A DNA stretch of 64,000 nt from a virus. The DNA is taken from the IMG/VR virus record IMGVR_UViG_3300017613_001944, positions 1-64,000 of that record, one strand, 5' to 3'. Position 1 is the stretch's first letter. Each line of letters starts with the position of its first letter. Shown here one piece after another: positions 5,201 to 54,789 of this stretch. The position numbers were made by a program, and so were the translations under genes. A model generated the notes under the pieces. It was not told where the DNA came from, made no database searches, and was given only the letters and a program-made list of their open reading frames with translations.

Positions 5201-5318
5201 AAAGAAACCAGCTACTTGTCCAACGTGCGCGGGAAATAAAGAGATCTATGTGAACGGGAAGTGGGAGAAATGCAAAGAGTGCAAGGGAATAGGATTTATC
5301 CTGGTAGACGATAAGTAG
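5193..5318 (+). CDS. small zinc-ribbon protein, 41 aa
   Basis: MGRKKPATCPTCAGNK... has CPTC (residues 9-12) and CKECKG (27-32), a CxxC-x14-CxxC pattern close to half of a DnaJ-type zinc repeat. It overlaps the epimerase stop and its own TAG overlaps the next GTG start by one base. It probably binds zinc; partner unknown. Confidence 0.6.
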   Translation: MGRKKPATCPTCAGNKEIYVNGKWEKCKECKGIGFILVDDK

Positions 5319-11145: not shown

Positions 11146-11146
11146 A

Positions 11147-11824
11147 ATGGAAGACCTTCAAATCTATGAAGAGTGGAGACTGGCACTTGCCAAGCTGCAA
11201 GGAGGAAGAACCTACTACCGGGACCAGACTCCTGAAAGTATCAAGCAACTGGTTGATCTGGCAAGAGCTTACGAACCAAACAAAATTATTGAGATAGGCA
11301 CCTCTTATGGCCTCTCTCTGAGAGCGTGGCTGCACGCATTGCCGGAGGTGCACGTCACCGCCATCGACTTTACATTCAACCCGCTCCGCATGACCACAGA
11401 TGTTGTGCCATACGATGAGAGCCGGGTCACTCTGGTGGAGAGTGACGTATCTAATGTGGAGCTTCCGATGTACTGGCACGGCACCGACAAGGTGATCCTG
11501 TTCTTCGATTGCCACGGTGCGGCTAATATGCGCTACACCCTGAAACACGCGGAGTCGTTACCCAAGGGCAGTGTCTTCGCCGTGGACGATATGTGGTATA
11601 GCGAAGAGAAGCTTCACGAGGGCAACCTTGAAGAGTTCTATGACAGGGTTGTTCTGCCGACAGTAGATCCCCACTGCCCTGTCAGGCCAGTGGACTATAG
11701 TGACTATTGGGTTGGTGGTTCATTCTATTGCTTCGATGAGGTTCATCCTCTGATGAGGTATCTCGAGAGGAACCGAATCGTAGCAACCCATGAGCCGCCC
11801 AAGTTACTTTACTGGGAGGTATAA
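11147..11824 (+). CDS. Rossmann-fold methyltransferase-like protein
   Basis: 225 residues. IIEIGTSYGLSLRAWLH (about 46-62) matches SAM motif I in the form found in class I methyltransferase and cephalosporin-hydroxylase-like proteins, followed by AIDFTF, VESDVS and an FFDCHGAAN strand with acidic residues (about 119-127) and FAVDDMWYS. The DCH and VDDMW motifs are compatible with a metal- or SAM-dependent enzyme of the CmcI or methyltransf_24 type. The reaction cannot be named. The start is one base after the previous stop. Confidence 0.6.
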   Translation: MEDLQIYEEWRLALAKLQGGRTYYRDQTPESIKQLVDLARAYEPNKIIEIGTSYGLSLRAWLHALPEVHVTAIDFTFNPLRMTTDVVPYDESRVTLVESDVSNVELPMYWHGTDKVILFFDCHGAANMRYTLKHAESLPKGSVFAVDDMWYSEEKLHEGNLEEFYDRVVLPTVDPHCPVRPVDYSDYWVGGSFYCFDEVHPLMRYLERNRIVATHEPPKLLYWEV

Positions 11825-11825
11825 G

Positions 11826-12449
11826 ATGGAGTACTTACAAGATCCATTTTCTGTGATATGTGATCTTGAGGGCAATCCAGTCTACACTCAACACGTCATC
11901 AAGTATCAGGCGACCTACGGCTTTCCTCTCTATTCGCAGAGAGATCCGCAGTGGGCAGGAGATCAGTTGGGCTACGGTACTACCACGATTGGACAACAGG
12001 GCTGTCTTGTTACCGCCCTCTCCGAAGCGCTGACGGTGGTTTATCAAGAGCCTATCACACCCAACGTCCTCAATGAGAAGTTGAAAGAGATCAACGGTTT
12101 CTCTGGGAGCAATCTCTACTGGACAAGGGTGACAAAGGCGTATCCCTCCTTTCAGTTCGTTGAAAGGGTATATTGTAAATTGGTCCCCGCCCCTGCCGCA
12201 GAGATTGAGACTTGGCTTGGGGAAGGGCAGTACGTAGTTGTGGAGATAGATATGAATCTGAAGACCAAGGCAGTAGATCAGCATTGGCTACTGCTGGTCG
12301 GCGGCGACAAGGATCAGTTTGTCTATCACGACCCCTGGCTGACGGTAAATCAGCAGGAGGCCAGGACTATGCCTCCCGGCTACTGCAAGCAGGACTGGGA
12401 CCCGGCGAGAGCCATCTTCCAATACGCACGTTACAGGATGACACCATGA
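11826..12449 (+). CDS. C39-like cysteine peptidase
   Basis: 207 residues from ATG 11826 with GGAGGT just before it; an upstream start at 11790 lies inside the previous gene. FPLYSQRDPQWAGDQLG (33-49), GQQGCLVTALS with the nucleophile Cys60, QHWLLLVGG with the His and VYHDPW with the Asp-containing turn follow the Peptidase_C39_2 pattern. Such proteins cleave peptide bonds. In phages they are found as lysis- or virion-associated peptidases, but they also occur in bacterial secretion. No signal peptide or cell-wall-binding domain is seen. It could be the phage's only peptidoglycan or prohead peptidase in this window, but that is not proved. Confidence 0.75.
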   Translation: MEYLQDPFSVICDLEGNPVYTQHVIKYQATYGFPLYSQRDPQWAGDQLGYGTTTIGQQGCLVTALSEALTVVYQEPITPNVLNEKLKEINGFSGSNLYWTRVTKAYPSFQFVERVYCKLVPAPAAEIETWLGEGQYVVVEIDMNLKTKAVDQHWLLLVGGDKDQFVYHDPWLTVNQQEARTMPPGYCKQDWDPARAIFQYARYRMTP

Positions 12450-13237
12450 TAACACTATTCACCACACTGAAGCCCAGCGATAACGGTGGGCGCATCGACG
12501 TAATTCAGTACAACGCCCTGATGAGTTGGTCCTATCTGCCAGCAGAGATTATGGTCTTCGGGGATGAAACTGGAACCAAGGAACTGGTGGAGGAGGTCTC
12601 GTTGAGATCTGCTTACAACAAACGTCCCGCCACCTTTGCCTCAGTTCAAGAGCACCGGGGCGTGAATGAGTTTGGCACACCGTTGATCGAGCCAATGTTT
12701 CGACATGCCAGTGACGTAGCCCAATATGACATCCTGGGCTATGTCAACGGGGACATCATTTTGAAGCCCAGCTTTACCTTGGCTGTCAAGCTGTCCAGCG
12801 TTATAAATAAGTTTCTGATGGTCGGCAGACGCATAAACCTGGAGGTCAAGGAGAAGCTGGACTTTGAGGGCGACTGGCGACTTGAACTGGATGCTATGAT
12901 AGACAACGATGCCTACGCCGCAGTTGGTGCTGCCATTGACTACTTTGTTCACACCCGCTACCTATGGGATAACATTCCTCCCGAGCTTGCCATAGCGCGT
13001 TACTATTGGGACAACCATCTAACATGGCTGGTCGGGACAGAGCTACGCTTGCCGGTGATAGACGCAACGGGTGTTACGCTTGCCGTGCACCAGTCCCATG
13101 GGCAACCGATTGGGTTCGATTCGCCGGAGGGTTTAAAGAACAGAGACGTGGTGGCATACAGGATGGCGGGGGTGGAGCATTCCACTCATCATCTAAACTC
13201 TGATGGCGCAGTCGCGCCGGGGGCATACAATGGATAA
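12446..13237 (+). CDS. GT-A-like glycosyltransferase
   Basis: 263 residues from an ATG overlapping the previous TGA (ATGA). Strands MITLFTTLKP and AEIMVFGDETG resemble the donor-binding half of GT-A enzymes, and ILGYVNGDIILKPSF has the acidic N-G-D metal-site position. LMVGRRINLEVKE and a C-terminal DATGVTLAVHQSHGQP follow the pattern of a nucleotide-diphospho-sugar transferase found next to FkbM methyltransferases in bacteria. The sugar and acceptor are unknown. It is the last sugar gene before the packaging genes. Confidence 0.55.
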   Translation: MITLFTTLKPSDNGGRIDVIQYNALMSWSYLPAEIMVFGDETGTKELVEEVSLRSAYNKRPATFASVQEHRGVNEFGTPLIEPMFRHASDVAQYDILGYVNGDIILKPSFTLAVKLSSVINKFLMVGRRINLEVKEKLDFEGDWRLELDAMIDNDAYAAVGAAIDYFVHTRYLWDNIPPELAIARYYWDNHLTWLVGTELRLPVIDATGVTLAVHQSHGQPIGFDSPEGLKNRDVVAYRMAGVEHSTHHLNSDGAVAPGAYNG

Positions 13238-13493
13238 AGTAGCTTGTGCCATTGAGAACCTTGCAAAGAGTATGGATAGAATGGCGCTGTGTCAGCTATT
13301 CGATGCTGGCATTATCACACTGGATGAAGCGAGAGACTTGCTTGGTCTTCCCGAGGTCACAGAACACCGTCGCCTACAGTTACGTCGTGCAACAAACTTT
13401 ACCTACAACAGTGCATTGGTCCTACCGGGTTATGCACTGAGCGAGATTGGTGTAAGGCGTGAACAGGAGCCCTCAAAGAATGAGCCTGAATGA
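13230..13493 (+). CDS. hypothetical protein before terminase
   Basis: About 87 residues from the ATG at 13230, which has GGGGG eight bases upstream; an ATG at 13203 adds nine residues but lacks a ribosome site. All-helical, with LFDAGIITLDEARDLLGLPEVTE, a short helix pair also seen at the C-terminus of some phage portal proteins. Its place directly before terL would suit a small terminase subunit, but no helix-turn-helix can be confirmed, so the call stays open. It overlaps the terminase start by 14 bp. Confidence 0.5.
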   Translation: MDKVACAIENLAKSMDRMALCQLFDAGIITLDEARDLLGLPEVTEHRRLQLRRATNFTYNSALVLPGYALSEIGVRREQEPSKNEPE

Positions 13494-15237
13494 CGAAGAG
13501 AGATACATCATCTCTGAGGCATCCAAGGGGAATATGGGCCTCTTTATAGAGTACTATTTCCGTCTCCCGTTTTCAGGAACCTGGTTCACTACGGAAGATC
13601 GTGTTGAGCAATACGACATTCTCCATCAGGTGTGGGTAGGATTGGGCAAGCCGGATGAGATATTCGACGCGGAGATAGGGGACAAGCTAGCTGAGATAAG
13701 GATTACGTGGGACCCCTACTATGGCGAGTATCCCATGTTCCTCCTTCACCACGGTTTCAAGACACTGGAGTGGATGCAGAAGTTCCTGTCTCCAGGCGTC
13801 ACCCACGGCGTGGCTACTACTGGGACTGGATCGGGTAAGACTGCCGGGGTAGCCGTTTATGCACTGGCATGTTGCGCCGTGATCCCAGGGTTCAGGTTCC
13901 ACAACGCTGCCCCTACTCAGTACCACGCTAACTTGATGTTGGGAGAGATCACCAAGTGGGTTGGGACTGACGCTGACAAGTTCCGCAAGTTCATCAAGTT
14001 GAGCAAGGGAGCCAATGAGCTGTGGAATGAGAGAGAGGGCTATCCGGTAATCACCATTCAGTCTCCTCTCAATCCCAAGATACAATCCTCATTCTCTTGC
14101 CAGACTGTAGGTCAGAATGCCAATAGCATCCTGGGGAGGGAGCAGGACTGGATCAACATTGAGGAAGCGCAGTTGATGTATAACATCACTGATGCGGAGC
14201 CGAAGCTAGCCACTCGTTTACGTGGCACCAGGGCCACTGGTTTGCCACGCTGGTCCAAGCAAACCTGGATCTCAAACCCCGGAGATAATCCCGAGTTCAT
14301 TGGTCTCATCGAAAAGTACAAGGAATTGGAAAAGGACGGGATGGCGGGGGTCTTGGTTCTTGAGGATGTACCATCAGATGTCAATCGTTACATCACCAAA
14401 CGCCAACTAGAGAAGCAGCGCTTGACCATGAGTCAGCGGGAGATTGACAGGTGGATGGGTGGACAGATGTCTGCGGTAAGAGAAGATTCTGAGATCACCA
14501 CCGCAATGCTGGAAGCCTGCAAGAGCGACGAGCTCACCAAGGAGGTGGATAAGGTGGGCAAGTTTGCCGATGACCTTGGCCTGGTGCGCTATGAGCTGCC
14601 CCATGAACCTGACAGACACTATGTGGTGGTGGGTGATGTTGGGAAGAGCCCACGATCTGCCTTGAGCAGTATGAACGTCCCGGCTATAATGGTCTTTGAT
14701 GTGACCAACTTCCTAGAGGAGCCCTGTAGATTGGTGGCATTACGATGGATAGATGGCAAGGGATCTTACGAGCCGTTCGTCACGTCTATGAAGTATCTGA
14801 TCCTCAAGTACAGGGCCAGGGGCTATTACGACGCGGGTAACGTACAGACTGCCTTTGAGGATGTGGGCGGCTTCGAGGATGTTCCCTACACGGAGCCTGT
14901 CAGCTTTGCTGGTCACGCCTCCATTAAAAAGTGGGCTGTGGCAGTAACAAGCATCTTGATGCAGAATGGATTGTTTGAGTGGCCCTACATAAAGGCGCTA
15001 TGGTATCAGGGCAGGATCTTCAGAGTCGCCTCCAAGAAAAATCCCGATGACCTGATAGCCTGTCTCTTGGTATTCTCGAGGGTACTACAGATAGAGGGAA
15101 CACTGTGGAACAGGTTTGTGAGCAGATTCGATTGGGACGTGGAGGACATTAAAGAGGATGAAGTGGACGAAGAGGATGATTACGAAGTTTCGCGTGGCCC
15201 TGTTTTTGATAGGCACACAAGAATACCGACGCGATAA
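13480..15237 (+). CDS. terL: terminase large subunit
   Basis: The DNA-packaging motor and headful or site nuclease. The ATPase half has a Walker A ATTGTGSGKTAG (about 112-123, Lys120) and a Walker B WINIEEAQ with the catalytic Glu pair (about 224-231). The RNase H-like nuclease half has VVVGDVGKSPRS, RGYYDAGNVQTAF and PDDLIACLLVF, giving the three acidic positions. The 585 residues are a normal full length. ATG 13480 is chosen with CAGGAG upstream; a GTG at 13459 would add seven residues. It follows the usual order just before the portal. The Walker A is slightly unusual in having threonine before each glycine. Confidence 0.93.
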   Translation: MSLNDEERYIISEASKGNMGLFIEYYFRLPFSGTWFTTEDRVEQYDILHQVWVGLGKPDEIFDAEIGDKLAEIRITWDPYYGEYPMFLLHHGFKTLEWMQKFLSPGVTHGVATTGTGSGKTAGVAVYALACCAVIPGFRFHNAAPTQYHANLMLGEITKWVGTDADKFRKFIKLSKGANELWNEREGYPVITIQSPLNPKIQSSFSCQTVGQNANSILGREQDWINIEEAQLMYNITDAEPKLATRLRGTRATGLPRWSKQTWISNPGDNPEFIGLIEKYKELEKDGMAGVLVLEDVPSDVNRYITKRQLEKQRLTMSQREIDRWMGGQMSAVREDSEITTAMLEACKSDELTKEVDKVGKFADDLGLVRYELPHEPDRHYVVVGDVGKSPRSALSSMNVPAIMVFDVTNFLEEPCRLVALRWIDGKGSYEPFVTSMKYLILKYRARGYYDAGNVQTAFEDVGGFEDVPYTEPVSFAGHASIKKWAVAVTSILMQNGLFEWPYIKALWYQGRIFRVASKKNPDDLIACLLVFSRVLQIEGTLWNRFVSRFDWDVEDIKEDEVDEEDDYEVSRGPVFDRHTRIPTR

Positions 15238-15370
15238 GAGGATCTACTATCAGAGATGTTTCTTCAGAGCAATTATAAACATACTGGAGTTCGGGGTGAG
15301 GGACAGGATCAGGGACGGGTTACACAGAAACGCTTATCCAATGTACGACGATAGACATTGGAGGCATTGA
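15176..15370 (+). CDS. possible small basic protein overlapping terL end
   Basis: An open frame from ATG 15176 (MITKFRVALFLIG...) to 15370, 64 residues and very rich in arginine and tyrosine, overlapping the last 62 bases of terL in another frame. AAGAGG is nearby but not well spaced. It fills the only sizeable gap between terL and the portal. It could be a chance frame; the strong promoter right at its end argues that the region is at least partly regulatory. Confidence 0.35.
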   Translation: MITKFRVALFLIGTQEYRRDKRIYYQRCFFRAIINILEFGVRDRIRDGLHRNAYPMYDDRHWRH

Positions 15371-15396
15371 CATTCATCTTTCCTTAATGGTAAAAT
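15367..15396 (+). promoter_or_regulatory. sigma-70 promoter upstream of portal
   Basis: TTGACA (15367-15372), an 18 bp spacer, then TAAAAT (15391-15396). The -35 is perfect consensus and the -10 differs at one position. Transcription would start near 15403, about 11 bases before the portal ATG at 15414 and close to its GGAGGAG ribosome site, giving a very short leader. Confidence 0.75.
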
Positions 15397-15413
15397 GAAT
15401 TGTGGAGGAGATT

Positions 15414-16940
15414 ATGAGCGATAAAGATATTTGGAATGATGAGGAATGGATAAAGCGCCGGAGTGAGAGCAACACTTATCGACGCAGGTATGCCGGTAAG
15501 CATCTGGATGAACTGCTGCCGGGTAGAGATCGCGATAGTGGAGATGCTGCCAAGCGCTTTCCATTACGCCTGAACCTGGATAAGCTGGCGTGTGACATCC
15601 ACCGAGACATCACCCGTGGGGTCCCCAACGACGATGACACACTTTTCGTCAAGTCGATTATTGGTCGGGGGGAAGACCCGGAACGCGCAGAGTTGATAGA
15701 GGACATCATCAACGAGGGTGTGTGGAGGCCATCCAGCGCCGGAGCTATTCAGCAAGAGGCGCTGCTCTCTATGAACATCTATGGGGGAACCGCCTTCAAG
15801 CTGTCCTGGGAGCCGTGGCTATTCGACTTACCATATAGCTTGGCTGTTAGACCTATCAAAGATCCCGCTTTGATAAACCCCAAGATGGACTTCCTCAATC
15901 CGTGGCGAATGACTGAGTGTTACTTTGGCTATGAGATTGACAGAGATATAGCGGAAGCCAAGTACGGCATCGCTCCCAGTAGCGCAGATAAGTGCTTGTA
16001 TATGGAGCATTGGACGGAGAATGCGTGGAAGATTCAGGTGGACGACCAAGTACCCACCATCAAGTTTGGGAATGGGCAGAAGGTGGAGTTGCAGGGGGAG
16101 AACATCTTTGGATTCGTCCCCTTCTACTACATCCCCCACGAGCGCACTGTTGAGATGTATGGCGAAAGCCAAGCCTTCGGTAAGGATGGTCTCACCCGAG
16201 AGGTGAACAGCCGAACAGTGTCCATCTCTGACCTGGTGGCCTCCATCAAGTCTGACGTGTTGTATGGTACCGATATGCGCGGGACCACGGGGCAGTTCAA
16301 GATGATGTCCTACGAAGGGCAACCGATGAAACTGGTCTTGGATCTTGGGGATACCAAGGCTATGCAGAATGCCAAGACACCGGCGCTTCACGCCATCCCC
16401 ATGCCGGATATCCCAGGCAACCTTGTCGATTGGCCTATGCAGCTCTTTAGCTTGTGGATGATGATAGAGCGTGTGTCACCCGCCGCCTTCGGGTTGGATG
16501 ACACAAGCAGTGGCAGGATCACAGGACCCGCAATCTCCCAGAGAATGTGGACCAGTGTAGCCCACTGTGTGACAGAGCGCACCAACTTCAGCACGGCTAA
16601 AACGATGATCGACAGAGACATCATCAGGATGTTGGCGAATGAGCAATTCAAAAAGGATCTGGAACTCTACGGGATAGACGTTCCTGATATTAACGAGAAA
16701 GATGCTAGACGTAAAGTAAAACAAAACTGGCCTACCATGCTCCCCATTGATAGGGCGGAGAGACACAAGGAATTGATAGAGATGCTGAGAGAACGCGGCA
16801 TGTCCATCGAGGAATATGTGGAAGAGCGTGGCAAGGAAGACATCACAAGAATACGCCAGGAGATTCTGGACTGGCAGAGGGATTTAGCAGAAGTGGCACC
16901 AGTCAACAGGCCACCTATGATAGCAAATGAAAAAGATTAA
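15414..16940 (+). CDS. phage portal protein
   Basis: 508 residues from ATG 15414, with GGAGGAG at 15404-15410; the upstream GTG at 15402 would put the ribosome site inside the gene. Forms the dodecameric ring at the packaging vertex. Recognisable traits are FPLRLNLDKLACDIHRDITRG near the N-terminus, NIYGGTAFKLSW, the central YIPHERTVEMYGESQAF segment followed by a helix, and a long C-terminal helical wing ending in an acidic, arginine-rich region (ERGKEDITRIRQEILDWQ). Position directly after terL and behind a strong promoter supports the call. Length is normal for siphovirus portals. Confidence 0.85.
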   Translation: MSDKDIWNDEEWIKRRSESNTYRRRYAGKHLDELLPGRDRDSGDAAKRFPLRLNLDKLACDIHRDITRGVPNDDDTLFVKSIIGRGEDPERAELIEDIINEGVWRPSSAGAIQQEALLSMNIYGGTAFKLSWEPWLFDLPYSLAVRPIKDPALINPKMDFLNPWRMTECYFGYEIDRDIAEAKYGIAPSSADKCLYMEHWTENAWKIQVDDQVPTIKFGNGQKVELQGENIFGFVPFYYIPHERTVEMYGESQAFGKDGLTREVNSRTVSISDLVASIKSDVLYGTDMRGTTGQFKMMSYEGQPMKLVLDLGDTKAMQNAKTPALHAIPMPDIPGNLVDWPMQLFSLWMMIERVSPAAFGLDDTSSGRITGPAISQRMWTSVAHCVTERTNFSTAKTMIDRDIIRMLANEQFKKDLELYGIDVPDINEKDARRKVKQNWPTMLPIDRAERHKELIEMLRERGMSIEEYVEERGKEDITRIRQEILDWQRDLAEVAPVNRPPMIANEKD

Positions 16941-17994
16941 AGTAATAGGTTTTGTCAGGGACACACCTAATGGAGGACTGAGCCCAGTGAATTACTACAG
17001 GGCCTACCTTCCTTTAAGGGCACTGCAAGAATTAGACAAGCGCTTCGAGGTGACCATCTTCAGTCAGGCGCAGGTAGGAGAATTGATAAGGCAATACGGG
17101 TCCCGCTCCGAGGAGATCCTCATGGGGCGGGATCTGTACGTTATCTCGAGACTGTTCACCCGTCAGTACCTGGACAGGTTCGTTGACGCTATCCATGAGG
17201 ACGGCGGCAAGGTTATCTTTGATACAGATGACGATCTCACAGACGACTACCGTGATCTGGGTAGAGGTGAGGACTTTAAGATCACTATTGGGGCGATGGA
17301 TCTGGTCACTGTGTCAACCCCATTCCTCTCCAAGAGAATACACAGATACGTGAACCACAAACCTCCCATACTGATGAATCACATCGACTTCAAGTGGTTC
17401 AGCAAGGAGAGCAGGAAGGCTCCCAGAACTGTCCCCGGCTTAACGGTGGGGCTGGTGGGAACAGCCTCTCACTACGATGACTGGATCTATCCGGTGAGAG
17501 CTTTGAGGAAGTTAGCTGAGGAGAGCACGGATATTAACCTGGTTGTTGCCGGGTTTTTCCCAGACTACCTGGATGATCTGCCGAACCTGCATCAGATCAA
17601 ACCAGTTCCCTATTTAAAGTATCCCGGCATGATTAGGCAATTTGACATCATCTGCTGCTCGTTAGATCCCGATGATATGTTCAATAAATCCAAGTCGGCA
17701 ATTAAGGCCATAGAGGCCATGTCGTCGGTACGACGCCTCAGTGATGGGAGATGGGGAGGAGCTGTGCCGGTATGCACCAACATGCCGGTGTACCGGAGGG
17801 CTGTGAACCACATGCACAACGGGATCTTGACATCGAATGACGGCTGGTACGATGCTCTCTCGGAGATGATACACAACACCAAGCTACGAAATAATATTGC
17901 TGTAAATGGAACGAAGTGGGTTCAAAAGAATAGGGACATCAACGTAGGGTATAAATCCTGGGCGAAACTCTACAAGAGGGTATCGCGTGGCTAA
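16927..17994 (+). CDS. GT4-like glycosyltransferase within structural module
   Basis: 355 residues with a GT-B layout. The N-terminus KKIKVIGFVRDTPNGGLSP is a family-typical glycine loop. Acidic VIFDTDDDL, LTVGLVGTASHYDDW, INLVVAGFFPDYLDDLPN and a C-terminal IKAIEAMSS...GGAVPVCTN.PVY complete the donor half of a GT4/GT1 enzyme. It overlaps the portal end by 14 bp, so it is translated together with packaging genes. That placement suggests glycosylation of a virion component, but no target is indicated. It is far from the main sugar island. Confidence 0.75.
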   Translation: MKKIKVIGFVRDTPNGGLSPVNYYRAYLPLRALQELDKRFEVTIFSQAQVGELIRQYGSRSEEILMGRDLYVISRLFTRQYLDRFVDAIHEDGGKVIFDTDDDLTDDYRDLGRGEDFKITIGAMDLVTVSTPFLSKRIHRYVNHKPPILMNHIDFKWFSKESRKAPRTVPGLTVGLVGTASHYDDWIYPVRALRKLAEESTDINLVVAGFFPDYLDDLPNLHQIKPVPYLKYPGMIRQFDIICCSLDPDDMFNKSKSAIKAIEAMSSVRRLSDGRWGGAVPVCTNMPVYRRAVNHMHNGILTSNDGWYDALSEMIHNTKLRNNIAVNGTKWVQKNRDINVGYKSWAKLYKRVSRG

Positions 17995-31379: not shown

Positions 31380-32567
31380 ATGGCTGGGTTACAAATGCCA
31401 AATGAGACCAGGTTTGGCTTGGGCATTCAACAGGGAGGTGGAGGCCAAGGTGTCTCTGACTACTTGAAGATGGCCCTGGGCTATGAGCATGTGGTCTCGA
31501 ACAACGACAACTTTTCATATTTCCCTCTAACCGACGTTGGTATCTCCCCTGTTAAAACTATGGGAACTCTTCCACCGGAGATTGGTGGACGAGCCCTGGC
31601 GACAGGAGCTTATGCAACCGGCACTTGGGCTGCTGGCCCAGTGACAATGATCCCACGCTTGGACAATCGGCTGGGGTGGTTGCTATTGGCTGGAATGGGG
31701 GATGTCAGCACAGTTGCGGATACGAAAGCTGAGAATCTCGCCATCCTTGGCGGGGTACACGGCGCTGATGCTGGTATCAACAGCCACATCTTCCAGTTCA
31801 ACATTGACGATCAGTACTTCGTCCCGTGGCTCACGCTACGTCGTTTGCTTCCGCATTCGACCACGGCGCTGCGCTTGGGCGAGACGTTCCAAGATGGAAA
31901 GATGGCTACCTTCACGCTCACGGCAACCGCCGGAGCGCCCTTGCAAGTAGACGTTGACTTCCTGGCTAGATTGAAGCAGAGTAACTACATCTTTGACTTT
32001 GATCCAAGCTGGGGTACGTTCGTCAACGATGACTTTGACAAGTTCGGCGTTACGAGTTGTGATGGTCACTTTAACGTGGAAGACGTGGCATTCGATGTCA
32101 CTGCGGTTACGATCACGGTAGGTAACATCTTGTTGCCTCCAACCCAATCAATCATCATAGGAACCACACATCCTGTTGACTTCCCGAATCTCAACAGGAC
32201 GATGACGGTGACGGCTTCCTTCCTGGTGAGCACTTGGGACTTCTATGTCAGCACTTTCGCTGGGTCTGCGGTTACGGCTACAGATTCCAATGTTGAGTGT
32301 GCGGTTTACAAGGCAGACATAGATGTGATGTTGGCGAGTCAAGTTAACATCACCGGATCTGAACCGTATCGTATTCGGATACTGTCCAACCCGAACGAGG
32401 ATAATGCGGCTTGGACTGTTCAACCCGTTAGGATCATGCCTAACAGACCAGTGGTTGTTCAGGCTAACTGCACCGTCCTGGCGTTGGAGGGATCAAGTTG
32501 GGAGAACCATCCGGTTTTCATCGTTCTTCAAAACGACAAAGCCGACTACAACCTTCCAACACCATAG
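31380..32567 (+). CDS. major tail tube protein
   Basis: 395 residues. Sits after the neck genes and before chaperones and tape measure, the place of the tube gene in siphoviruses. The core FTLTATAGAPLQVDVDFLAR is typical of the beta-sandwich of tail tube proteins, where a long strand is followed by a G-x-P-L/F. Later TMTVTASFLVS and TGSEPYRIRILSNPN support a second beta domain, an Ig-like or decoration addition. No sheath gene follows, so the tail should be non-contractile. GGAGGG upstream. Confidence 0.75.
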   Translation: MAGLQMPNETRFGLGIQQGGGGQGVSDYLKMALGYEHVVSNNDNFSYFPLTDVGISPVKTMGTLPPEIGGRALATGAYATGTWAAGPVTMIPRLDNRLGWLLLAGMGDVSTVADTKAENLAILGGVHGADAGINSHIFQFNIDDQYFVPWLTLRRLLPHSTTALRLGETFQDGKMATFTLTATAGAPLQVDVDFLARLKQSNYIFDFDPSWGTFVNDDFDKFGVTSCDGHFNVEDVAFDVTAVTITVGNILLPPTQSIIIGTTHPVDFPNLNRTMTVTASFLVSTWDFYVSTFAGSAVTATDSNVECAVYKADIDVMLASQVNITGSEPYRIRILSNPNEDNAAWTVQPVRIMPNRPVVVQANCTVLALEGSSWENHPVFIVLQNDKADYNLPTP

Positions 32568-32890: not shown

Positions 32891-33376
32891 ATGGCTATCA
32901 AAGTCGCGCCTATCTTCTCGGAGCCGCTGTATCTCGGTGATCTGAGCGAAGAAGTGGCTAAGATGGAGAAGGATTGTGACCAAAACGACAGAGCATGGAT
33001 AAAAGCACGGCAAGCGACAGAATCTGATGAGATGGAGATCAGTTCACTGTACTCTAAATCAAAGACTGTGTGGACTGGTGAGGCTACGGAACAGGTCCAA
33101 GAAATCAACCCCAGGGAACGGCAGGCCATGGAGATCTACCTGTGTATGGTAGACGCCGGTAACATTGACGATGAAGATGGCCCACTGTTCACCTTTGTAG
33201 AAAATGGACCTTACGCCAAAGTGGACGGAGGCTTCCAGATATTCAAGGAAGCATACGGAAGACTTCCATCCGAGGCCACATTAGCTATGTTGCGTGCCGT
33301 GTATACTGTTAACCCCGGCTGGGGTTGGTGGTTGAGCCAAGAGAAATCGGAGGGGGAAGCGAAGACGGGGGAGTAA
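32891..33376 (+). CDS. tail assembly chaperone-like protein (gpG position)
   Basis: 161 residues. The position just before the tape measure and the acidic helical C-terminus (LSQEKSEGEAKTGE) match the gpG-type chaperone of siphoviruses. The next frame overlaps it in the -1 register by 50-60 bases, the arrangement used for a G-T frameshift. The family cannot be recognised by sequence alone. Confidence 0.55.
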   Translation: MAIKVAPIFSEPLYLGDLSEEVAKMEKDCDQNDRAWIKARQATESDEMEISSLYSKSKTVWTGEATEQVQEINPRERQAMEIYLCMVDAGNIDDEDGPLFTFVENGPYAKVDGGFQIFKEAYGRLPSEATLAMLRAVYTVNPGWGWWLSQEKSEGEAKTGE

Positions 33377-33717
33377 ACCCCCTTCTACAGCATCTCGATG
33401 TACTGGAGAACGCAGTTCTTGAGTGGTTAGAGAGGAGCTTCTATGAGACGGCTGACCACGAGCTCCAGAAAGCTCTACGTAAACAAGCGCTGCTCCCAGT
33501 AAATATGCAAGCCGAAATGCCGGAGGCTTACCGCATCTGGCGTACCTGTCAAAGACATAGTGAGTTGTTCTGGCCTGGTGGTATAGCCAATCAACCGGCA
33601 ACCCTTATGTTAGAGATGGAGGCTTGCGAGAGAGTTTCAAACCAGTTCCAGGATCAAATCAAGCGAATGTACGGCATTATCGAGGATAAAGGCAGTGGCG
33701 CTTCGCCCATCGGATAA
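33328..33717 (+). CDS. second tail chaperone-like protein (gpT position)
   Basis: About 129 residues if started at the GTG at 33328 (a TTG at 33325 is just before it); in the -1 frame relative to the 161-residue protein. Helix-rich (LLQHLDVLENAVLEWLERSFYET, DHELQKALRKQALL, MLEMEACERVSNQFQDQIKRMYG). The upstream frame is open back to 33313, so the product may be made only by slippage from the upstream gene. No canonical slippery heptamer is visible. The next gene starts inside its last 23 bases. Confidence 0.5.
   Translation: MVEPREIGGGSEDGGVNPLLQHLDVLENAVLEWLERSFYETADHELQKALRKQALLPVNMQAEMPEAYRIWRTCQRHSELFWPGGIANQPATLMLEMEACERVSNQFQDQIKRMYGIIEDKGSGASPIG
33367..33382 (+). promoter_or_regulatory. 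short hairpin across the stop codon of the chaperone-like gene
   Basis: GGGGG (33367-33371), loop AGTAAA (33372-33377), CCCCC (33378-33382). The stem straddles the TAA at 33374-33376, where the -1 frame continues. Could influence slippage or coupling; a chance structure is possible. Confidence 0.4.
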
Positions 33718-36700
33718 CCCAGGGAGAGCTCTGCAAGACAGGGCAGAACAACGCGCTCAACAGCTTATGCGTGAGCGGCGTGGTTGGTCTTATTCTGCTG
33801 CACTCAACTTTGCTATGAATGAGTTGACGTATCAGCAGCAGCATGTCGTCCTGGATGTTGAGACAACGGGTGTAAAGAAGGGCGAGAACGAGCTCATCCA
33901 GATTGGTGCCAGGAAGTTTGGTCCTGGTGGAAAACCCGGAGAGACCTATCAAACCTTTGTTGATCCAGGTGGTCCAATTCCCCAGGACATCACTAATCTA
34001 ACCGGCATCAGCACCCAGATGGTAATGGGTGCTCCCTCTCCACAACAGGCAGTCTCAGAACTGTCTCAGTTTGTAGGCAATCTCCCCGTCGTTGGTCACA
34101 ATGTTGGCTTTGACATTGGCTTCCTGGGGATGCACGGCTTTGAAGCATCAACAGCAGCAGACACTCTAGCTGCATCCAGAGCCGCTATGCCACAACGTCG
34201 CAGCCACTCTCTTGCCAACATCGCCGCAGAGCAGGGGTGGGGAATACAACAGCACGAGGCCATGGCTGATGTTGGCATGACCTCCTTACTTCATAGTCAG
34301 CTAGCAACAATGTATCAAGGAGGTGTTCCTCCACCGAGTGGACCACCTCCACCTGCAAACATCTCCCGCTCCATGGGACCCACGCAAAGGGCGTTGCCCC
34401 CAGCAGTGCACGGCGCTGCTATGCAGTTGGGGATAGACGCACAGCAGGCTTCTGAGATCGTCAGCTCGGCTGGTGGTGGATCTATCCGCCAGCAGATAGA
34501 AGCCGTACAACAGTTTGTATACAACAAGATAGGCAAACCCGCCCCCTTTGGCGGTAGTGCAGATCCCATGCAGGCTCTCTCCCCCACACAGTGGGTGCAA
34601 ACCACAGAGAGTGGGCGTGCGATGACACGCACCATGACACCCTTGCCATCATCCTTTGATCCAGCTAAAGCGCAGGAGACATGGGACCCAGGGCAGATAT
34701 CCTATCCTGGGAACAAGATGCAACTTGATCTTGAGCGCAGTCTTGGTGCTTCGATATGGCCTGTTCGAGGTGGGGCGATTCAGACGGGACTAGAAAAGCC
34801 TGAACAATTCCCCAAGCGAATTAAGCAAGCAATCTCGAACTATCAGCAGATTTATCTCAAGGACATGGAGATAGAGGAGGCTCCGTGGTTGACAGGGCCA
34901 ACCTCTCAAGCTCCCGAGAAGGGGCAGACTCTTCGCACTGCTGTGGTGTTTGGCGGCTTTGCTCCCGAGGGCATGTCCTACATTAAGCAGGATCTGGGCT
35001 CCGCCGGGGACTTCAAGTATCACAAGCTCCCTATTCCAGCAGGGGTGGTGCCAGAGGATATAGCTCCTGTCGGAACTGCATTTACTAGATCTCAGGGGGC
35101 ACAGCTATTCAAGGGGCACACCGGCATCAAGTTTGGTGACTGGGAAGAGCAGCATGTTCAGGACATTAGATTTGAGCCTGGAGCCATCAACCAGCCAGGC
35201 GCTCTACACGTCAGAATGGGAAGGGGCATTCCTCTAACACGCGGTATCGGCTACTCGATGCACTCTGGTAAGGAGTTGCTGGTGGGTGCCGATGTCGAGA
35301 AGATGACTGGCAGAAGCGACATCCAGGTGGTGAAAGCTGGTCCCAGGGATGTGCTTGGTCTGGCATTCCAGGCATACAGCTCCATGGCTCCAGCCGAATA
35401 CGAGAGGGTAACTGGCAAGCCGCGCCCTGCCACTTGGCAACAAGCTGCCGCAGATGAAGAGTCTATGGCAGCTTTTGATCGGATGGCTAGTGACAACGCC
35501 ACGATGCTCCAGTTCCCCGACCAAATTATCTCTAAAGCCAACCTTGAGGCTTTTAAAGAGGGCAATAGGATAGTTCCCGGCACATTAGAAGAGCTCGGCG
35601 GCGAGAGATACCGTGCCACCCTGGAGTATCCAGCGGTGGTAATGGATCTCTTTACCCAGTTCACCCGTGGGGCCTATGAGCATGGTCAACCATTTGTTGG
35701 GGAGGGTACTCTCCGGCGAATAAGAGACGCCAACCCTCAACTCTACAACCAGATGATGGGTGAGGGAAAGCAGCAGCGTGAGTGGAGACAGCAAAACGTC
35801 CAGGCATACACTGCCAGCAGAGGAATACCGGGATTAAGGCAAGCTCCAGACCAATACACTATGGCAAGGGATCTTCCCTGGACTAACATTACACAAGACG
35901 CTACTCGCAGAGCCATGAAGATCAGCGGTGTTGATCGCCCCGAGGATATCCCTTACGGCGCAGAACAAGCAGCACTGTTACAACGAATCCCTCTAACTCA
36001 CGAGGGTCGAGCCACAGGAGCTCTCGCCTTCGAGAGCCGTGGCAAGGATTATTTCTTCCCCCATCCCAGGCATGTCCCCGCCGTACCAGGGACCTTGGGC
36101 TATGAAGAACGAAGCGCCTATAGGCACCGCTACGCAAATCTACTCCAGGAACAAATGAGGTATCAAGAGACTGGTGAGGAGGAGCCGTATCGCTCTGCCC
36201 TTGCTGGTACAATGCTAGCTAGTCACCGTCTTGTAAGCTCCGGCGAATTTCTAAAGCGCACGCTGGGCGTAGAGCCACGAAGTCTATATGGTGGCATGGG
36301 TGCTGCATCTTTCGCCAATCTTCCCGAAGAGCTGTATATGCCAACAGAGGCTGCTGCAAGAGCCAGTGGTATCAAGGTTGGCACTCCCGAATATGAAAGA
36401 TTCCAGCGCAATTTCGAGTCAGGCGGTTATCAGTTTGCTGCCTCTGTATTCCGGGAGCCTACCACTGATACGGCGGGAGTGCTGGTGAAGGGACTGGTCA
36501 AGTGGATAGGCACACATCCAAACGAAACTCTTCGGGACGCACGTATACCAGTCTTGTCTGCGGAGATGGGCCAGACACTAAGAGGCGACTTTGACAAGGA
36601 CGCCTACACCATTGCCAGGGAGTGGGGCATTGATCTAGCAGATGCCCAAACTCTCAAGATACAAATGCGCGACTTCAATCTTTCAAATGCCCAGGCTGAC

Positions 36701-39700
36701 AAGGCAGGACAGCGAGACAAGCAATTCAAGGAGATTGGAAAGTTTGGCACTATTAGATCCATGCTGGATAGAATAGGCCAGAGAACAGCAATACCTCTTA
36801 GAGATGCTATTGGGCAGATGAGCGAGAGGTCCAGTGTCGGCAGACAGATGGGTTATGGCTACAATATTCAGCAAGAGCTAGAAATGTCGGCGGTAGATCC
36901 AGAATCCAAGGCAGCAGCAGAGCTATTGGGCTCCAATATGTATATGCAGGGCCAGGACTTTGAGAAGTGGAGCAAGGAGCTTGAAAGTCTGGTAGTGCAT
37001 CGCAGTGCCAACCTTGCAACAGGCGGTGCATATAATATCATTACTGGTGAGCCGTCACGCATCCCATTCGGCAGGTCAGAGACGGGAATGATGCTCTCTG
37101 CCATTAGGATGGGATCAAATCTCCCAGGCTTGAGCTCCAGAGAGAAGGCAGCAATGATGACCCCTGCTGGTAATGAGGGGCTTCGTGCAGCAGTGGAGGG
37201 AGCTCTTGAGTCTGGTGACATTGACTCAATAGCACACTTATTGGAGGGTGCTCTTCCCGGCGGGGCACAGGAATGGGGAGAGAATACATTATTAGGGCGA
37301 CAAGTGTTAGGTCGCGCAGCAGATTTAGGACAAAGGAAAGGTGCCAAAGGAATCCGTGAATCACTAGCAGAAATCGGCAGATCATTAAGGTCTGTCGGTG
37401 CAGTAAGACGTTCTTATCCATTTAAGGGACGTGTGGAGGCGCTTAGAGAAAGAATGCGTCTAGGCGGAGAGCCTCCATCACCCGTTATGCAGGCTCTCTT
37501 GCCTGGCAGCGAAGCGCCTCTGGATGTCTCAGGTATGACACCAGAGGAGCAAGATGCTATGGCTATAAAAGCAGCCTCAGCCTCCTCTGGTAGGGGGCAA
37601 GGGCAAACACCAGAAGAAACAAGACGATTCGCTGATCGACAAATGGAGTGGCAAGCTGAGATAGCAAGAGGTACCGCTGACCCAGCAAACTATCCCGATC
37701 TATTCCCAACGAAGGAAGAGTACGCGAGATACGCGGCTCAAAGAGCCGGGGCACCCCCACGCCCACCCGATCCGGCACGTTCTGCCGGTTCAGGCGGTAT
37801 GGGAGGTGGAAGATTACCGCCTGTCACCACCGCTACCCCAGATCCGTCAGATCCACGTCAGTCTGGTGAAGGTGATCCCAAGAAGTGGGTTGTCAACCTG
37901 AACTATGGTGCTGTGAAGATAGGAGACTTTAACCGAGCAATTGAGACAATGACCAGCCGACTTGGTGATTGGTCTGAAGAAATGGACCCGATTGTCACCG
38001 GCGGTAAGCAGTTCACAAAAGCCCAGCAGCAGATGACTGAGAAGTTAATCTCTGCACGCAGAACTCTCGAAAGAGCAGATAGAGGCGAGGGGGATTTTAC
38101 GTCTGCACAGATACAAGCTGCCCAGCAAGCTCTTGCCACGCCTGGTATGGGTGTTCTTGGGCAAGCAGAAGAGCAGATCACCAATCGCTGGTGGGGCCAG
38201 AGAATGGATCAGGGCGCAAGAGGGCGCGTAGGTCGCTTCTATGAGCGCTTTGGTTCACGAGGAATGGGAGACGCCTCACCAACAGAGCGCATGGAGCGCG
38301 GATTCAGAAGTGTATTCTCTGGATGGGAGCTCATGCGCTTACAGCGTATGTGGGGTCTGACTGGTGGACGAGCGTTTGGCGCTATGCCAGTTGCCGCAGA
38401 AGCACAGCAAGGTGCTATGCAAGCCGCCATGGTTGGACAGCCTATGGGCCAGTTTGGGATGGGCGATATCACTGCTGGCTTACTTGAGACGGGTGCAAGA
38501 CAACAACAGTTCCAGGTTCAGATGGGCACTGCTACTAACCAGGCTTGGGGCTGGATGCCTAGAGCTATGGCAAACACAGGACTGGGCACAGCGGCTGGCA
38601 TTGGATTACCTGCACTTGGCATGGGTGCTGCTGCTGGATGGGGAGCTGGGGTACTTGGACTTGGCGCTCTTTCTACTCCCCTTGGTTTAGGGGTTGCAGC
38701 AGGAGCGGGTATATATGGCGGGATCAACTATCTAAGAAATAGGCCAGAAGAGGACATAGATGTTGCGGCAGCGGAGCAACGAAAGCGAGATCTGACGCGA
38801 CAAATAGCGACACCTCAAGGGCTGGAGCGCTTCAGGCCACCGGGATGGATGGGTGGTGCCTTTGGCCCAAGCGTTGAAGGCTACTCTGAAGAACAAGCAG
38901 AGAGAGGCGAAACGATCCTTAGCGGAGAGCTAACTGGTCTTTCTGTTCCACAACGGATGAAGGCCATTCAGGAAGCATATCAATATGCTCCGCAATGGAT
39001 GGAGCCAACGGCTGCACAGGGCCTTGCTCAACAGTGGATGCGCTATGATCCCGAAGCAACTAACATCAGAGAAATCTACGAGGACCCACGCTTCGAGGCA
39101 ATGGCTGCACGCGGCACTGATGTTGAAACCTACGCTAAAATGGCAGAGGGTTTTGGTATGCGCCCAAGCCAAGCCTTTGATATTTACAGTATCATGGCTG
39201 GCGTGTCAGAGCAAGAGTTTGGTCCAGTTTCTGAGACTGCTCAATCGTGGATGGGACTTGGTAGAGCTGCTGGCATGAAGCCAGAAGACATCTTAAGTCG
39301 CTCCAAGCCAAGAACACAGACTCCTGGGGATACCCGGTGGGGTGATGTATATAATCCTGAGCGACTGGCGGGACCAAGATTGGAGCGATTGTCAGGCGAT
39401 CCGATGGTACAGCAAAGAGCGCAAGCTATCGAAGGTATGATGATACAGCGGCGCACAGCAGGGATGGAGATCCCGTTTGAACCCCCCACCACTGAAGCGG
39501 CGGTGATGGATATCTACCAAGGTGGGCAGATGCAGCTAGGCACTGCTGGATTGGGGCTTGCCAATCAGTTTATGGGAATGGGAGCTACTCCGCTAACTGC
39601 CGGGGCTGGTGCTGGTGCCGCAGAGCGTTACGGTATGATGGGGGTACGAGGTGTCAGTGGCTTTATGGGCGGGGACAGGAACATAATGGCTATGCTTGGT

Positions 39701-40942
39701 CAGGCCAATGTTCAAGGTCCATTCTCCCAGGTGAATGTCGGTGGTGGAATGCAATATAACGCAGGTCCACTGCGACAGGGCATCGAGGACGCCCTGGCAC
39801 AAGTCATGTCCCCAGAGGGAGCACAGAGTATAAGGGGAATGATGGGGGATATTCGCCCCTTAGTGGAACCAGAGACTGGCATGCAGATGGGTACCACTCG
39901 CATGTACGAGGGTTTCGCTGATGAATACCAGTTGCCTAGAGGCACAGATCAAGGAGCGTTTGATAAATATACTCAAATGCTGGTTACTGGTGGTAGACGT
40001 GACGTTGAGCGGGAAAAGGCCAGTCTCCAAGGTGACTTCCGAACATTCCAGCAAGATCAGCAAAGAACACAGCTAGAGTTACGCGGTGTATCTCAGTTCG
40101 GTGGGACCTTTGAGTCGCCCTACGGTGGTACATTAGATACCAAGGGCACCTTTGAGCTCACGCGGGAGATGAGAAATCTCTCCAGGACCTTCCAGGACTA
40201 TAACCAAGAGTACAATCAGGAGTCTCGACAACTGGGCTACAACCAGTTCCAAGAGAATTGGCAAGTACGAGCTCAGAGAATGCCTATCCAATTCCAGAGG
40301 CAGCGTGAAGACCTGGCTTTCCAGGGCAACCAGGCGGCTATGGGCTTCGGTTGGCAGATGGAAGACATCCAGGAGAACCTGCGCTTTGCCACTGGCAGGG
40401 ACAGGCGACGGCTATTACGCCAGCAAGAGCGTGCAGCCATCAGCTTTGGGATGGGACAGGGCCAGCGAGAAACACAGGCTGGACGAATAGACCAGAATGA
40501 GCGCTGGGCTGCTGAAGATCTTGAGCGACAGAAGCGACATTTTGAAGAGCGCTTCCGCTTACAGGATGATTACCAGGAAAGGTACCGTCAGTACACAGAA
40601 GAGCGTAGGGCAATAGAGGATCAGCTCCAAGAGATCCAGGAATTCAATGCCCAGTACAACTTAGAGGCTTCGACAGAGCAGCTAGACAAGTCCATCGCTC
40701 TCAACGAGCAGCTAAACGGGATACAAGAAGCATACACGGCAATGAACCAGGATCTCGAGAAGCAGGTTGGACTACAGCAACAGATCGTCAAGAACATCGA
40801 GTACTTGATAGCTCAATTTGCCGATGATGGTAGAGCAACCAACGCATTCAACGGTTTCATTTCACACATCGAGAACTCCTTCTCTCGGGAATCCGCCGAG
40901 ATAGGGCTGATGATCGACAGAATTTACGGCAACGATAGCTAG
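33695..40942 (+). CDS. 2415-aa tape measure protein with N-terminal exonuclease and RNAP-like region
   Basis: GTG start 33695 with GAGGA upstream. Residues 50-200 form a DnaQ-like DEDDh 3'-5' exonuclease with VVLDVETTG (Asp54, Glu56), VGHNVGFD (Asp140), and HEAMAD (His187, Asp192) all present. Residues 920-969 contain REPT and, 45 residues later, GDFDKD (Asp965, Asp967, Asp969), resembling the second double-psi barrel of two-barrel RNA polymerases. A proline- and glycine-rich linker ends near 1390. The last 1000 residues have the tape measure look: hydrophobic glycine/alanine helices (about 1625-1685), then a long glutamine-rich coiled coil at 2110-2400. It fixes tail length and is injected in such phages. 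The activity of the N-terminal parts is inferred. Confidence 0.85.
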   Translation: MALRPSDNPGRALQDRAEQRAQQLMRERRGWSYSAALNFAMNELTYQQQHVVLDVETTGVKKGENELIQIGARKFGPGGKPGETYQTFVDPGGPIPQDITNLTGISTQMVMGAPSPQQAVSELSQFVGNLPVVGHNVGFDIGFLGMHGFEASTAADTLAASRAAMPQRRSHSLANIAAEQGWGIQQHEAMADVGMTSLLHSQLATMYQGGVPPPSGPPPPANISRSMGPTQRALPPAVHGAAMQLGIDAQQASEIVSSAGGGSIRQQIEAVQQFVYNKIGKPAPFGGSADPMQALSPTQWVQTTESGRAMTRTMTPLPSSFDPAKAQETWDPGQISYPGNKMQLDLERSLGASIWPVRGGAIQTGLEKPEQFPKRIKQAISNYQQIYLKDMEIEEAPWLTGPTSQAPEKGQTLRTAVVFGGFAPEGMSYIKQDLGSAGDFKYHKLPIPAGVVPEDIAPVGTAFTRSQGAQLFKGHTGIKFGDWEEQHVQDIRFEPGAINQPGALHVRMGRGIPLTRGIGYSMHSGKELLVGADVEKMTGRSDIQVVKAGPRDVLGLAFQAYSSMAPAEYERVTGKPRPATWQQAAADEESMAAFDRMASDNATMLQFPDQIISKANLEAFKEGNRIVPGTLEELGGERYRATLEYPAVVMDLFTQFTRGAYEHGQPFVGEGTLRRIRDANPQLYNQMMGEGKQQREWRQQNVQAYTASRGIPGLRQAPDQYTMARDLPWTNITQDATRRAMKISGVDRPEDIPYGAEQAALLQRIPLTHEGRATGALAFESRGKDYFFPHPRHVPAVPGTLGYEERSAYRHRYANLLQEQMRYQETGEEEPYRSALAGTMLASHRLVSSGEFLKRTLGVEPRSLYGGMGAASFANLPEELYMPTEAAARASGIKVGTPEYERFQRNFESGGYQFAASVFREPTTDTAGVLVKGLVKWIGTHPNETLRDARIPVLSAEMGQTLRGDFDKDAYTIAREWGIDLADAQTLKIQMRDFNLSNAQADKAGQRDKQFKEIGKFGTIRSMLDRIGQRTAIPLRDAIGQMSERSSVGRQMGYGYNIQQELEMSAVDPESKAAAELLGSNMYMQGQDFEKWSKELESLVVHRSANLATGGAYNIITGEPSRIPFGRSETGMMLSAIRMGSNLPGLSSREKAAMMTPAGNEGLRAAVEGALESGDIDSIAHLLEGALPGGAQEWGENTLLGRQVLGRAADLGQRKGAKGIRESLAEIGRSLRSVGAVRRSYPFKGRVEALRERMRLGGEPPSPVMQALLPGSEAPLDVSGMTPEEQDAMAIKAASASSGRGQGQTPEETRRFADRQMEWQAEIARGTADPANYPDLFPTKEEYARYAAQRAGAPPRPPDPARSAGSGGMGGGRLPPVTTATPDPSDPRQSGEGDPKKWVVNLNYGAVKIGDFNRAIETMTSRLGDWSEEMDPIVTGGKQFTKAQQQMTEKLISARRTLERADRGEGDFTSAQIQAAQQALATPGMGVLGQAEEQITNRWWGQRMDQGARGRVGRFYERFGSRGMGDASPTERMERGFRSVFSGWELMRLQRMWGLTGGRAFGAMPVAAEAQQGAMQAAMVGQPMGQFGMGDITAGLLETGARQQQFQVQMGTATNQAWGWMPRAMANTGLGTAAGIGLPALGMGAAAGWGAGVLGLGALSTPLGLGVAAGAGIYGGINYLRNRPEEDIDVAAAEQRKRDLTRQIATPQGLERFRPPGWMGGAFGPSVEGYSEEQAERGETILSGELTGLSVPQRMKAIQEAYQYAPQWMEPTAAQGLAQQWMRYDPEATNIREIYEDPRFEAMAARGTDVETYAKMAEGFGMRPSQAFDIYSIMAGVSEQEFGPVSETAQSWMGLGRAAGMKPEDILSRSKPRTQTPGDTRWGDVYNPERLAGPRLERLSGDPMVQQRAQAIEGMMIQRRTAGMEIPFEPPTTEAAVMDIYQGGQMQLGTAGLGLANQFMGMGATPLTAGAGAGAAERYGMMGVRGVSGFMGGDRNIMAMLGQANVQGPFSQVNVGGGMQYNAGPLRQGIEDALAQVMSPEGAQSIRGMMGDIRPLVEPETGMQMGTTRMYEGFADEYQLPRGTDQGAFDKYTQMLVTGGRRDVEREKASLQGDFRTFQQDQQRTQLELRGVSQFGGTFESPYGGTLDTKGTFELTREMRNLSRTFQDYNQEYNQESRQLGYNQFQENWQVRAQRMPIQFQRQREDLAFQGNQAAMGFGWQMEDIQENLRFATGRDRRRLLRQQERAAISFGMGQGQRETQAGRIDQNERWAAEDLERQKRHFEERFRLQDDYQERYRQYTEERRAIEDQLQEIQEFNAQYNLEASTEQLDKSIALNEQLNGIQEAYTAMNQDLEKQVGLQQQIVKNIEYLIAQFADDGRATNAFNGFISHIENSFSRESAEIGLMIDRIYGNDS

Positions 40943-53973: not shown

Positions 53974-54789
53974 CTAGTAATCTTCTCCTTCTATGAATGG
54001 ACCTTCGCCCAGTTGAGGCCAGCATTTATGGAACCATTGGCAAGCAACTGCCTTTCCCTTCAGGGCCTTCACGTTCTTTGTGCAAGCAAAGTTTTCTGTA
54101 AATGGGCTATCGTATGTGGGCGGCAGCTCTGTCTCCCCCCAATGCTCTTCGTAGAGGGACATCTCTGCTGGCAGTGTTGTGTCCAGTGACCCTGATCTTA
54201 TCCTTCGGTTAACCTGCCCCTCATACCCGATACCGTCATCAGTCTCGAACACTTCAAACTGGGCGAAGTTGTTCCAGCAGCGATAGTATAGGACCACCGG
54301 CAGCATCCCGCCATGGGTCTCGTAGTACAGCTTCTGGTAGGCCAGCGCAGATAGAACGTGGTGCTTGTAGGGTAATCTCTTGGCGTGGAAATTCCAGGGG
54401 GCAGTACCCTTGTGCTCGATGATGACACCACTGGGGAAGTCTTCGCAGGTCTCGACCACGAAGTCAATTCTCCCCGACCAGATGTCATTCCTCACACTTA
54501 CCTGCTCGTGCAGATTGTCTTTGAAGATCCAGCGGAAGGTCTCTTGACTGTTGAGCTCGAGCTCGGTGCCCATACGCATCACCTCGATGACGTAATCATC
54601 GAACGGATTGGTCACCTTGTTACCCGTCCTTACCCTGAAAGCGTCCAGGTATGCCTTCCTCACGCACATCCCTAGACTGGATACGAATAGCCGGGGGTCA
54701 GTGCCGTCGTGCTCAATCTCCCATGCCTCGTCCCTCAGTCTTGACGCATCCTTGTACTCCTTTACCATCAAGTCATGTAATTGAATCAT
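53974..54789 (-). CDS. Cas4/RecB-like PD-(D/E)XK nuclease
   Basis: 271 residues. SSLGMCVRKAYLD (Cys42), WSGRIDFVVE (Asp109), VIIEHKG (Glu125, Lys127), then C-terminal Cys236, Cys250 and Cys256. This is the Cas4/AddB order: an N-terminal Cys, PD-(D/E)XK centre and C-terminal Cys triplet that bind an iron-sulfur cluster. The C-terminal spacing (C-x13-C-x5-C) is wider than the usual C-x2-C-x5-C. Such enzymes resect DNA ends for recombination, matching the neighbouring recA. Confidence 0.8.
   Translation of the reverse strand: MIQLHDLMVKEYKDASRLRDEAWEIEHDGTDPRLFVSSLGMCVRKAYLDAFRVRTGNKVTNPFDDYVIEVMRMGTELELNSQETFRWIFKDNLHEQVSVRNDIWSGRIDFVVETCEDFPSGVIIEHKGTAPWNFHAKRLPYKHHVLSALAYQKLYYETHGGMLPVVLYYRCWNNFAQFEVFETDDGIGYEGQVNRRIRSGSLDTTLPAEMSLYEEHWGETELPPTYDSPFTENFACTKNVKALKGKAVACQWFHKCWPQLGEGPFIEGEDY

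Follow-up and report, generated by a model that had tools for sequence, protein, structure and literature searches.

The closest described system is the Thermus phage P23-45, whose tape measure gp96 has an RNA polymerase, a proven virion enzyme, fused into its N-terminal part (PMC10770324). The polymerase of gp96 is active as residues 327-1124 and has its DFDGD motif at 779-783, with residues 1-326 being dispensable for activity, and its structures were deposited as PDB 8H2N and 8H2M (PMC10770324). This N-terminal polymerase is reported to be virion-borne and to act on the pre-early genes (PMC10770324). In the prevailing view, tape measures leave the particle at infection and make up a conduit for the DNA, and the P23-45 polymerase was proposed to transcribe during entry; RNA polymerases fused to tape measures are known from P23-45 and close Thermus phages (PMC10770324). 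Large injected phage proteins that combine unrelated enzyme domains also occur among the polyvalent proteins (PMC5512222).

We analyzed a window of 64,000 nucleotides, which comes from a virus record of 82,211 bp and for which a preliminary description had proposed a complete DnaQ-type exonuclease fused to the N-terminus of a tape measure protein. The features of this locus are collected in Table 1. None of the tape-measure family models in Pfam or PHROG matched the 2415-aa ORF, and since its group is divergent, we identify it as a tape measure by its position and architecture: the ORF is very long, follows the gene for the tail tube and two small ORFs in the position of tail chaperones, encodes a hydrophobic segment and has homologous giant ORFs in related phages. 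GAGG is found nine bases upstream of the GTG at 33695, the likely start. The alternative in-frame ATGs (aa 25 and aa 41) both stand, like the GTG, before the DEDDh domain, so that exonuclease and tape measure are read as one translation product. The two small ORFs gave no significant family match in Pfam or PHROG and are a possible -1 frameshift pair of tail chaperones. GGGGGAG is located just ahead of the stop of ORF 32891-33376, and the overlapping ORF 33325-33717 is in a different frame.

Table 1. Features of the tape measure locus, with positions in the window (aa, residues of the tape measure protein)
Feature	Position	Strand	Details and basis
Tail tube protein	31380..32567	+	Pfam Phage_tube_2 9.1e-8; upstream context
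Two small overlapping ORFs	32891-33376, 33325-33717	+	tail-chaperone position, from position and frames
Tape measure protein ORF	33695..40942	+	2415 aa, GTG start; open throughout
DEDDh 3'-5' exonuclease domain	33845..34282	+	aa 51-196; Pfam, PHROG and PDB matches
Exonuclease motif I, D54-V-E56	33854..33862	+	sequence; kept in L009
Exonuclease catalytic D140 (FDIGF)	34112..34114	+	sequence; kept in L009
Exonuclease motif III, H187..D192 (HEAMAD)	34253..34270	+	sequence; H and D kept in L009
Probable two-barrel RNA polymerase region	34862..37411	+	aa ~390-1239, limits approximate; L022 homology, Foldseek, gp96 profile match
R-x-P motif (REP, aa 920-922)	36452..36460	+	upstream of the predicted catalytic aspartates; proline invariant in the 12 aligned rows; aligns with gp96 FRNP
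Predicted DxDxD catalytic motif DFDKD (aa 965-969)	36587..36601	+	aligns with gp96 DFDGD 779-783
Tape-measure body	37901..40942	+	aa 1403-2415; HHalign to G001, blastp to L009
Hydrophobic segment	38615..38707	+	aa 1641-1671; hydropathy scan
Conserved C-terminal motif region	40271..40519	+	probe for finding the group; alignments and scans

The exonuclease domain was recovered as the preliminary description had placed it, with all five catalytic residues (D54, E56, D140, H187, and D192) present and in order. Pfam RNase_T (PF00929) matched aa 51-196 with E = 5.8e-23 and 82.7 bits against a cut-off of 24, and the match covered positions 1-160 of the 164 in the profile, i.e., the curated family cut-off was exceeded over the whole domain. 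PHROG 192 ("DNA polymerase exonuclease subunit") matched at 5.3e-34, and in a sequence search of the PDB the best match was the PolC exonuclease 2p1j (1.3e-14), followed by DnaQ, Cas2-DEDDh, and DinG. As a sequence match the domain is far above chance, and an RNase H-like fold is very likely, judging by these matches to solved DEDDh structures. The domain thus appears to belong to the same fold family as the DnaQ/PolC-type DEDDh exonucleases (PF00929, PHROG 192), having the same five catalytic residues. Unlike them, it is situated in a tape measure instead of a protein for replication or repair; among the proteins scanned, none was recognized as a DNA polymerase. Our search of the open-access literature is consistent with the assertion that enzymes of this kind are normally absent from tape measures: we found no published case of it, nor any of a DEDDh domain, a polymerase, and a tape measure in combination.

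Scans for viral relatives with the tape measure and the tail tube of the window found none, as did scans of genome contigs, and a scan with the major capsid protein yielded a single relative (G001). With the tape measure of G001, that of the window has two C-terminal parts in common: the body, which HHalign matches over aa 1403-1691 at 99.5%, and a short well-conserved motif (aa ~2187-2286). The remaining relatives were gathered by this C-terminal motif alone, which resulted in 15 distinct tape measures, the one of the window included. When the tape-measure region was compared with named phages by tblastn, the outcome was either DEDDh matches elsewhere or nothing significant, hence no cultured phage of this group is known here.

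One of these relatives, L009, has the same N-terminal DEDDh fusion in frame, with the five catalytic residues kept at 38% identity, so the search for this fusion in other phage tape measures, as had been suggested, did find another case. Two contigs whose IMG/VR sample numbers differ have an identical L009 ORF, which makes an assembly chimera unlikely. The bodies of the two tape measures align over aa 1738-2368 (blastp, 40%), and in the tree of the DEDDh domain the window and L009 were sisters (99/97), although this tree is small, with few rows and a long branch for L009. Only 2 of the 15 distinct tape measures, those of the window and L009, carry the exonuclease. The proposed in-frame fusion is therefore borne out by a single open frame and by its recurrence in a divergent phage, and these two facts together rule out that the domain belongs to a separate gene. 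A match in L007 was rejected as a further fusion, its open frame of just 633 aa not being tape-measure-sized. The sequences thus show directly that the domain is present, that its catalytic residues are intact, that it is fused in frame, and that the fusion is kept in a second phage.

While the exonuclease fusion of the preliminary description stood, the polymerase-like residues behind the domain had been missed. This part of the protein was alignable with L022 over aa 245-1239 (31%, 1e-127); the match to L009 covered aa 401-969 (26%, 3e-27). A DxDxD motif is present in 13 of the 15 distinct tape measures (it is absent from L031 and L032), which is not a selection effect, as the relatives were picked by their C-terminal motif. 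The polymerase region was aligned in 12 rows, chosen among the relatives having DxDxD; the invariant columns included all three aspartates of the motif and, upstream of it, the proline of R-x-P, and each of the 12 aligned regions contained exactly one DxDxD, an occurrence for which shuffling gives 0–21% per sequence. No significant sequence match to known polymerases was obtained for the region behind the exonuclease, no polymerase was found in a profile search of the PDB sequences with the polymerase region, and the search for a second polymerase by its DxDxD gave no convincing candidate. A single-chain two-barrel RNA polymerase, in which two double-psi beta-barrels would make up the active site, is the probable identity of aa ~390-1240, its catalytic DxDxD being the one at aa 965-969. 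L017 has two ORFs in place of the single one of its relatives, one for the polymerase-like part (L017:3024-7784) and one for the tape-measure body (7754-10693). They are in different frames and have 31 bases in common, an arrangement due to splitting of the gene, to a frameshift, or to an error in sequencing.

An AlphaFold model of aa 245-1240 had a mean pLDDT of 62.7 and was poor in the catalytic barrel. When this low-confidence model was searched blindly with Foldseek against 350,542 PDB chains, ranks 1–14 were all large subunits of multisubunit RNA polymerases, spanning beta-type and beta'-type subunits. None of the PDB matches of the polymerase models had an E-value below 0.009, and TM-scores were around 0.1. 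A second, cropped model was worse (mean pLDDT 49.4) and again had poxvirus polymerase subunits ranked first and second. Among predicted viral structures the best match was an uncharacterized Microcystis phage protein (1.1e-4), with giant-virus polymerases lower in the ranking and having weak E-values. By their ranking the structure searches support the polymerase reading, short of proof.

A profile of the 12 sequences was also compared with residues 1-1500 of gp96. Its best local match put FREPTT...GDFDKD on FRNPVM...VDFDGD, the known active site of gp96, with a score of 27.8, and 30 shuffles of gp96 in which DFDGD was planted at the same place scored at most 20.5. The match comprises 51 columns only and has an HHalign probability of 1.2%, i.e., the likeness to gp96 appears to be one of the active site, with full-length homology not being detected. 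If the polymerase reading is right, the window resembles P23-45 in having an N-terminal polymerase in its tape measure, and both proteins have one FRxP..DFDxD motif as well as an accessory region ahead of the polymerase. They differ in that gp96 is 5002 aa long and no exonuclease was reported in it, the paper on gp96 being free of the word nuclease (PMC10770324).

Several other proteins bear comparison with this architecture. The crAss-like phage phi14:2 gp66, which is also virion-borne, and QDE-1 have, as in the window, a single chain with DxDxD; there was no direct sequence match between them and the window, and they were not recovered by Foldseek with the weak models. Polyvalent proteins, which the window ORF resembles in combining unrelated enzyme domains in one large chain, are not tape measures, and no combination of DEDDh, polymerase, and tape measure occurs among those described in the part of the source considered (PMC5512222). 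Microcystis phage Ma-LMM01 gp80 and its counterpart in MaMV-DC are giant proteins with a GDFDGD motif and an annotation as PLD-type nuclease (BFVD). The window model matched the MaMV-DC counterpart at 1.1e-4 and Ma-LMM01 weakly (E 0.32); unlike the window ORF, gp80 is not known to be a tape measure. Ma-LMM01 gp80 (L037:8700-19388) has 3562 aa with GDFDGD at aa 2537 and may be another giant protein combining nuclease and polymerase.

The other tape measures of the group, which lack the DEDDh domain, carry other motifs. Stretches resembling PD-(D/E)XK nucleases are found before the polymerase region in L020 (aa ~60-200), behind it in L023 (aa ~1225-1360), and after the polymerase in G001, all with Pfam support below the threshold (DUF3799 in L020 and L023). 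HExxH metallopeptidase-like motifs were observed in L019 (aa 1235) and L022 (aa 1431), and the N-terminus of L022 has a zinc-finger-like CxxCxGxG. It looks as if the exonuclease occupies a variable accessory slot of the tape measures of this group. Trees of nine rows each placed the window differently for the two modules: with L022 for the polymerase module (100/99), and with L009 for the body (85/90), inside a clade (100/100) without L022. The simplest reading of these trees, given the small sampling, is an exchange of the polymerase module that left the exonuclease with its body.

We put an even chance on the following mechanism, in which one tape measure unites an intact-looking DEDDh exonuclease, a two-barrel RNA polymerase, and a body. 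By analogy with P23-45, the protein would be ejected at infection, its body (aa ~1400-2415) would become the conduit for the DNA, and the fused polymerase would transcribe the first genes while the DNA enters; the exonuclease would arrive at the entry site together with it and trim 3' ends of nucleic acids there. That the tape measure is injected with its exonuclease may reasonably be inferred from this analogy, whereas the domain itself is read from the sequence; its activity and substrate we infer likewise. For the substrate, we consider DNA more likely than transcripts that would be proofread, because in the trees it is the body, not the polymerase module, whose grouping the exonuclease shares, because relatives have a nuclease-like domain of another kind (PD-(D/E)XK-like) in the same protein, and because the nearest named families are DNA enzymes.

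A role in the service of the fused polymerase, i.e., proofreading or trimming of the 3' ends of transcripts or clearing of short abortive RNAs, would fit the presence of both enzymes in one chain, ~200 residues apart. RNA is the substrate of some DEDDh enzymes, coronavirus ExoN and oligoribonuclease among them, which lends this role a precedent. We nevertheless regard it as rather unlikely, considering that the trees put the exonuclease with the body, that L022, the nearest relative of the polymerase, is without a DEDDh domain, and that PolC, DnaQ, and DinG, the nearest named families, act on DNA. A broader version, in which the tape measures of the group are injected machines for transcription and nucleic-acid cleavage, with exchangeable nucleases (DEDDh or PD-(D/E)XK-like) beside the polymerase at the entry pore and with the DEDDh domain of the window and L009 proofreading the transcripts, is quite unlikely in our estimate; if true, it would mean an exonuclease proofreader built into the virion RNA polymerase of a DNA phage. 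The exonuclease might, on the other hand, be the lone enzyme of the protein, with the region behind it being no polymerase but some other conserved domain of the tape measure that happens to have an acidic motif, as could be argued from the absence of a significant match to known polymerases and the weak structure models. The invariant aspartates and proline, the polymerase subunits filling the 14 top Foldseek ranks, and the match to the gp96 active site make this improbable.

Two further alternatives concern where, and on what, the exonuclease acts. It might not be injected, or might be cut off before ejection, and have its role in the cell that makes the phage or in particle assembly, where it could act on DNA ends, say, or be no more than an unused passenger. 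Tape measures can be processed, which would allow for such an early removal. We consider this distinctly unlikely, given that the N-terminal polymerase of P23-45 is reported to be virion-borne and to act on pre-early genes, meaning that the N-terminal region is delivered there (PMC10770324), and that a mere passenger would hardly have kept five catalytic residues in two divergent phages. The domain might also counter host defences by destroying, at entry, the DNA of the host or signals made of nucleic acid; this would have parallels in injected multidomain phage proteins with roles in conflicts (PMC5512222), and in the host nuclease SNIPE, which works at the tape measure during injection (PMC13190303). 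The preliminary description had likewise raised defence evasion; our analysis gave it no direct support, and we regard it as very improbable.

What we favour, a tape measure injected with its polymerase and an exonuclease that would act on 3' ends at the entry site, has several implications. Beyond the reported Thermus phages, a wider set of uncultured phages looks to have a fusion of polymerase and tape measure like that of P23-45, here with an exonuclease in addition. If our reading is right, the P23-45 design has 13 or more further occurrences in divergent tape measures, and many phages for which no early-gene strategy is described may couple transcription to the entry of their DNA. The exonuclease would provide a defined, mutable enzyme at the place and time of genome entry, where SNIPE also acts (PMC13190303), and the module trees suggest an exchange of polymerase modules between tape measures.

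Some additional observations were made outside the tape measure. The stand-alone ORF at window positions 53974-54789 on the minus strand has a Cas4/RecB-like pattern (GRIDF...IIEHKG), with no Pfam match even at an E-value of 10. On the right arm (L002), a TGTACA-centred and partly palindromic sequence is repeated at 61-82, 9275-9296, and 10589-10610, with two of the copies being exact at the core; it was rejected as a promoter, its count, as scored, not being above chance. A cluster for sugar and methyl transfer (an epimerase, an FkbM-type methyltransferase, and a weak glycosyltransferase match) spans window positions 4229-17994 and adjoins phage structural genes.
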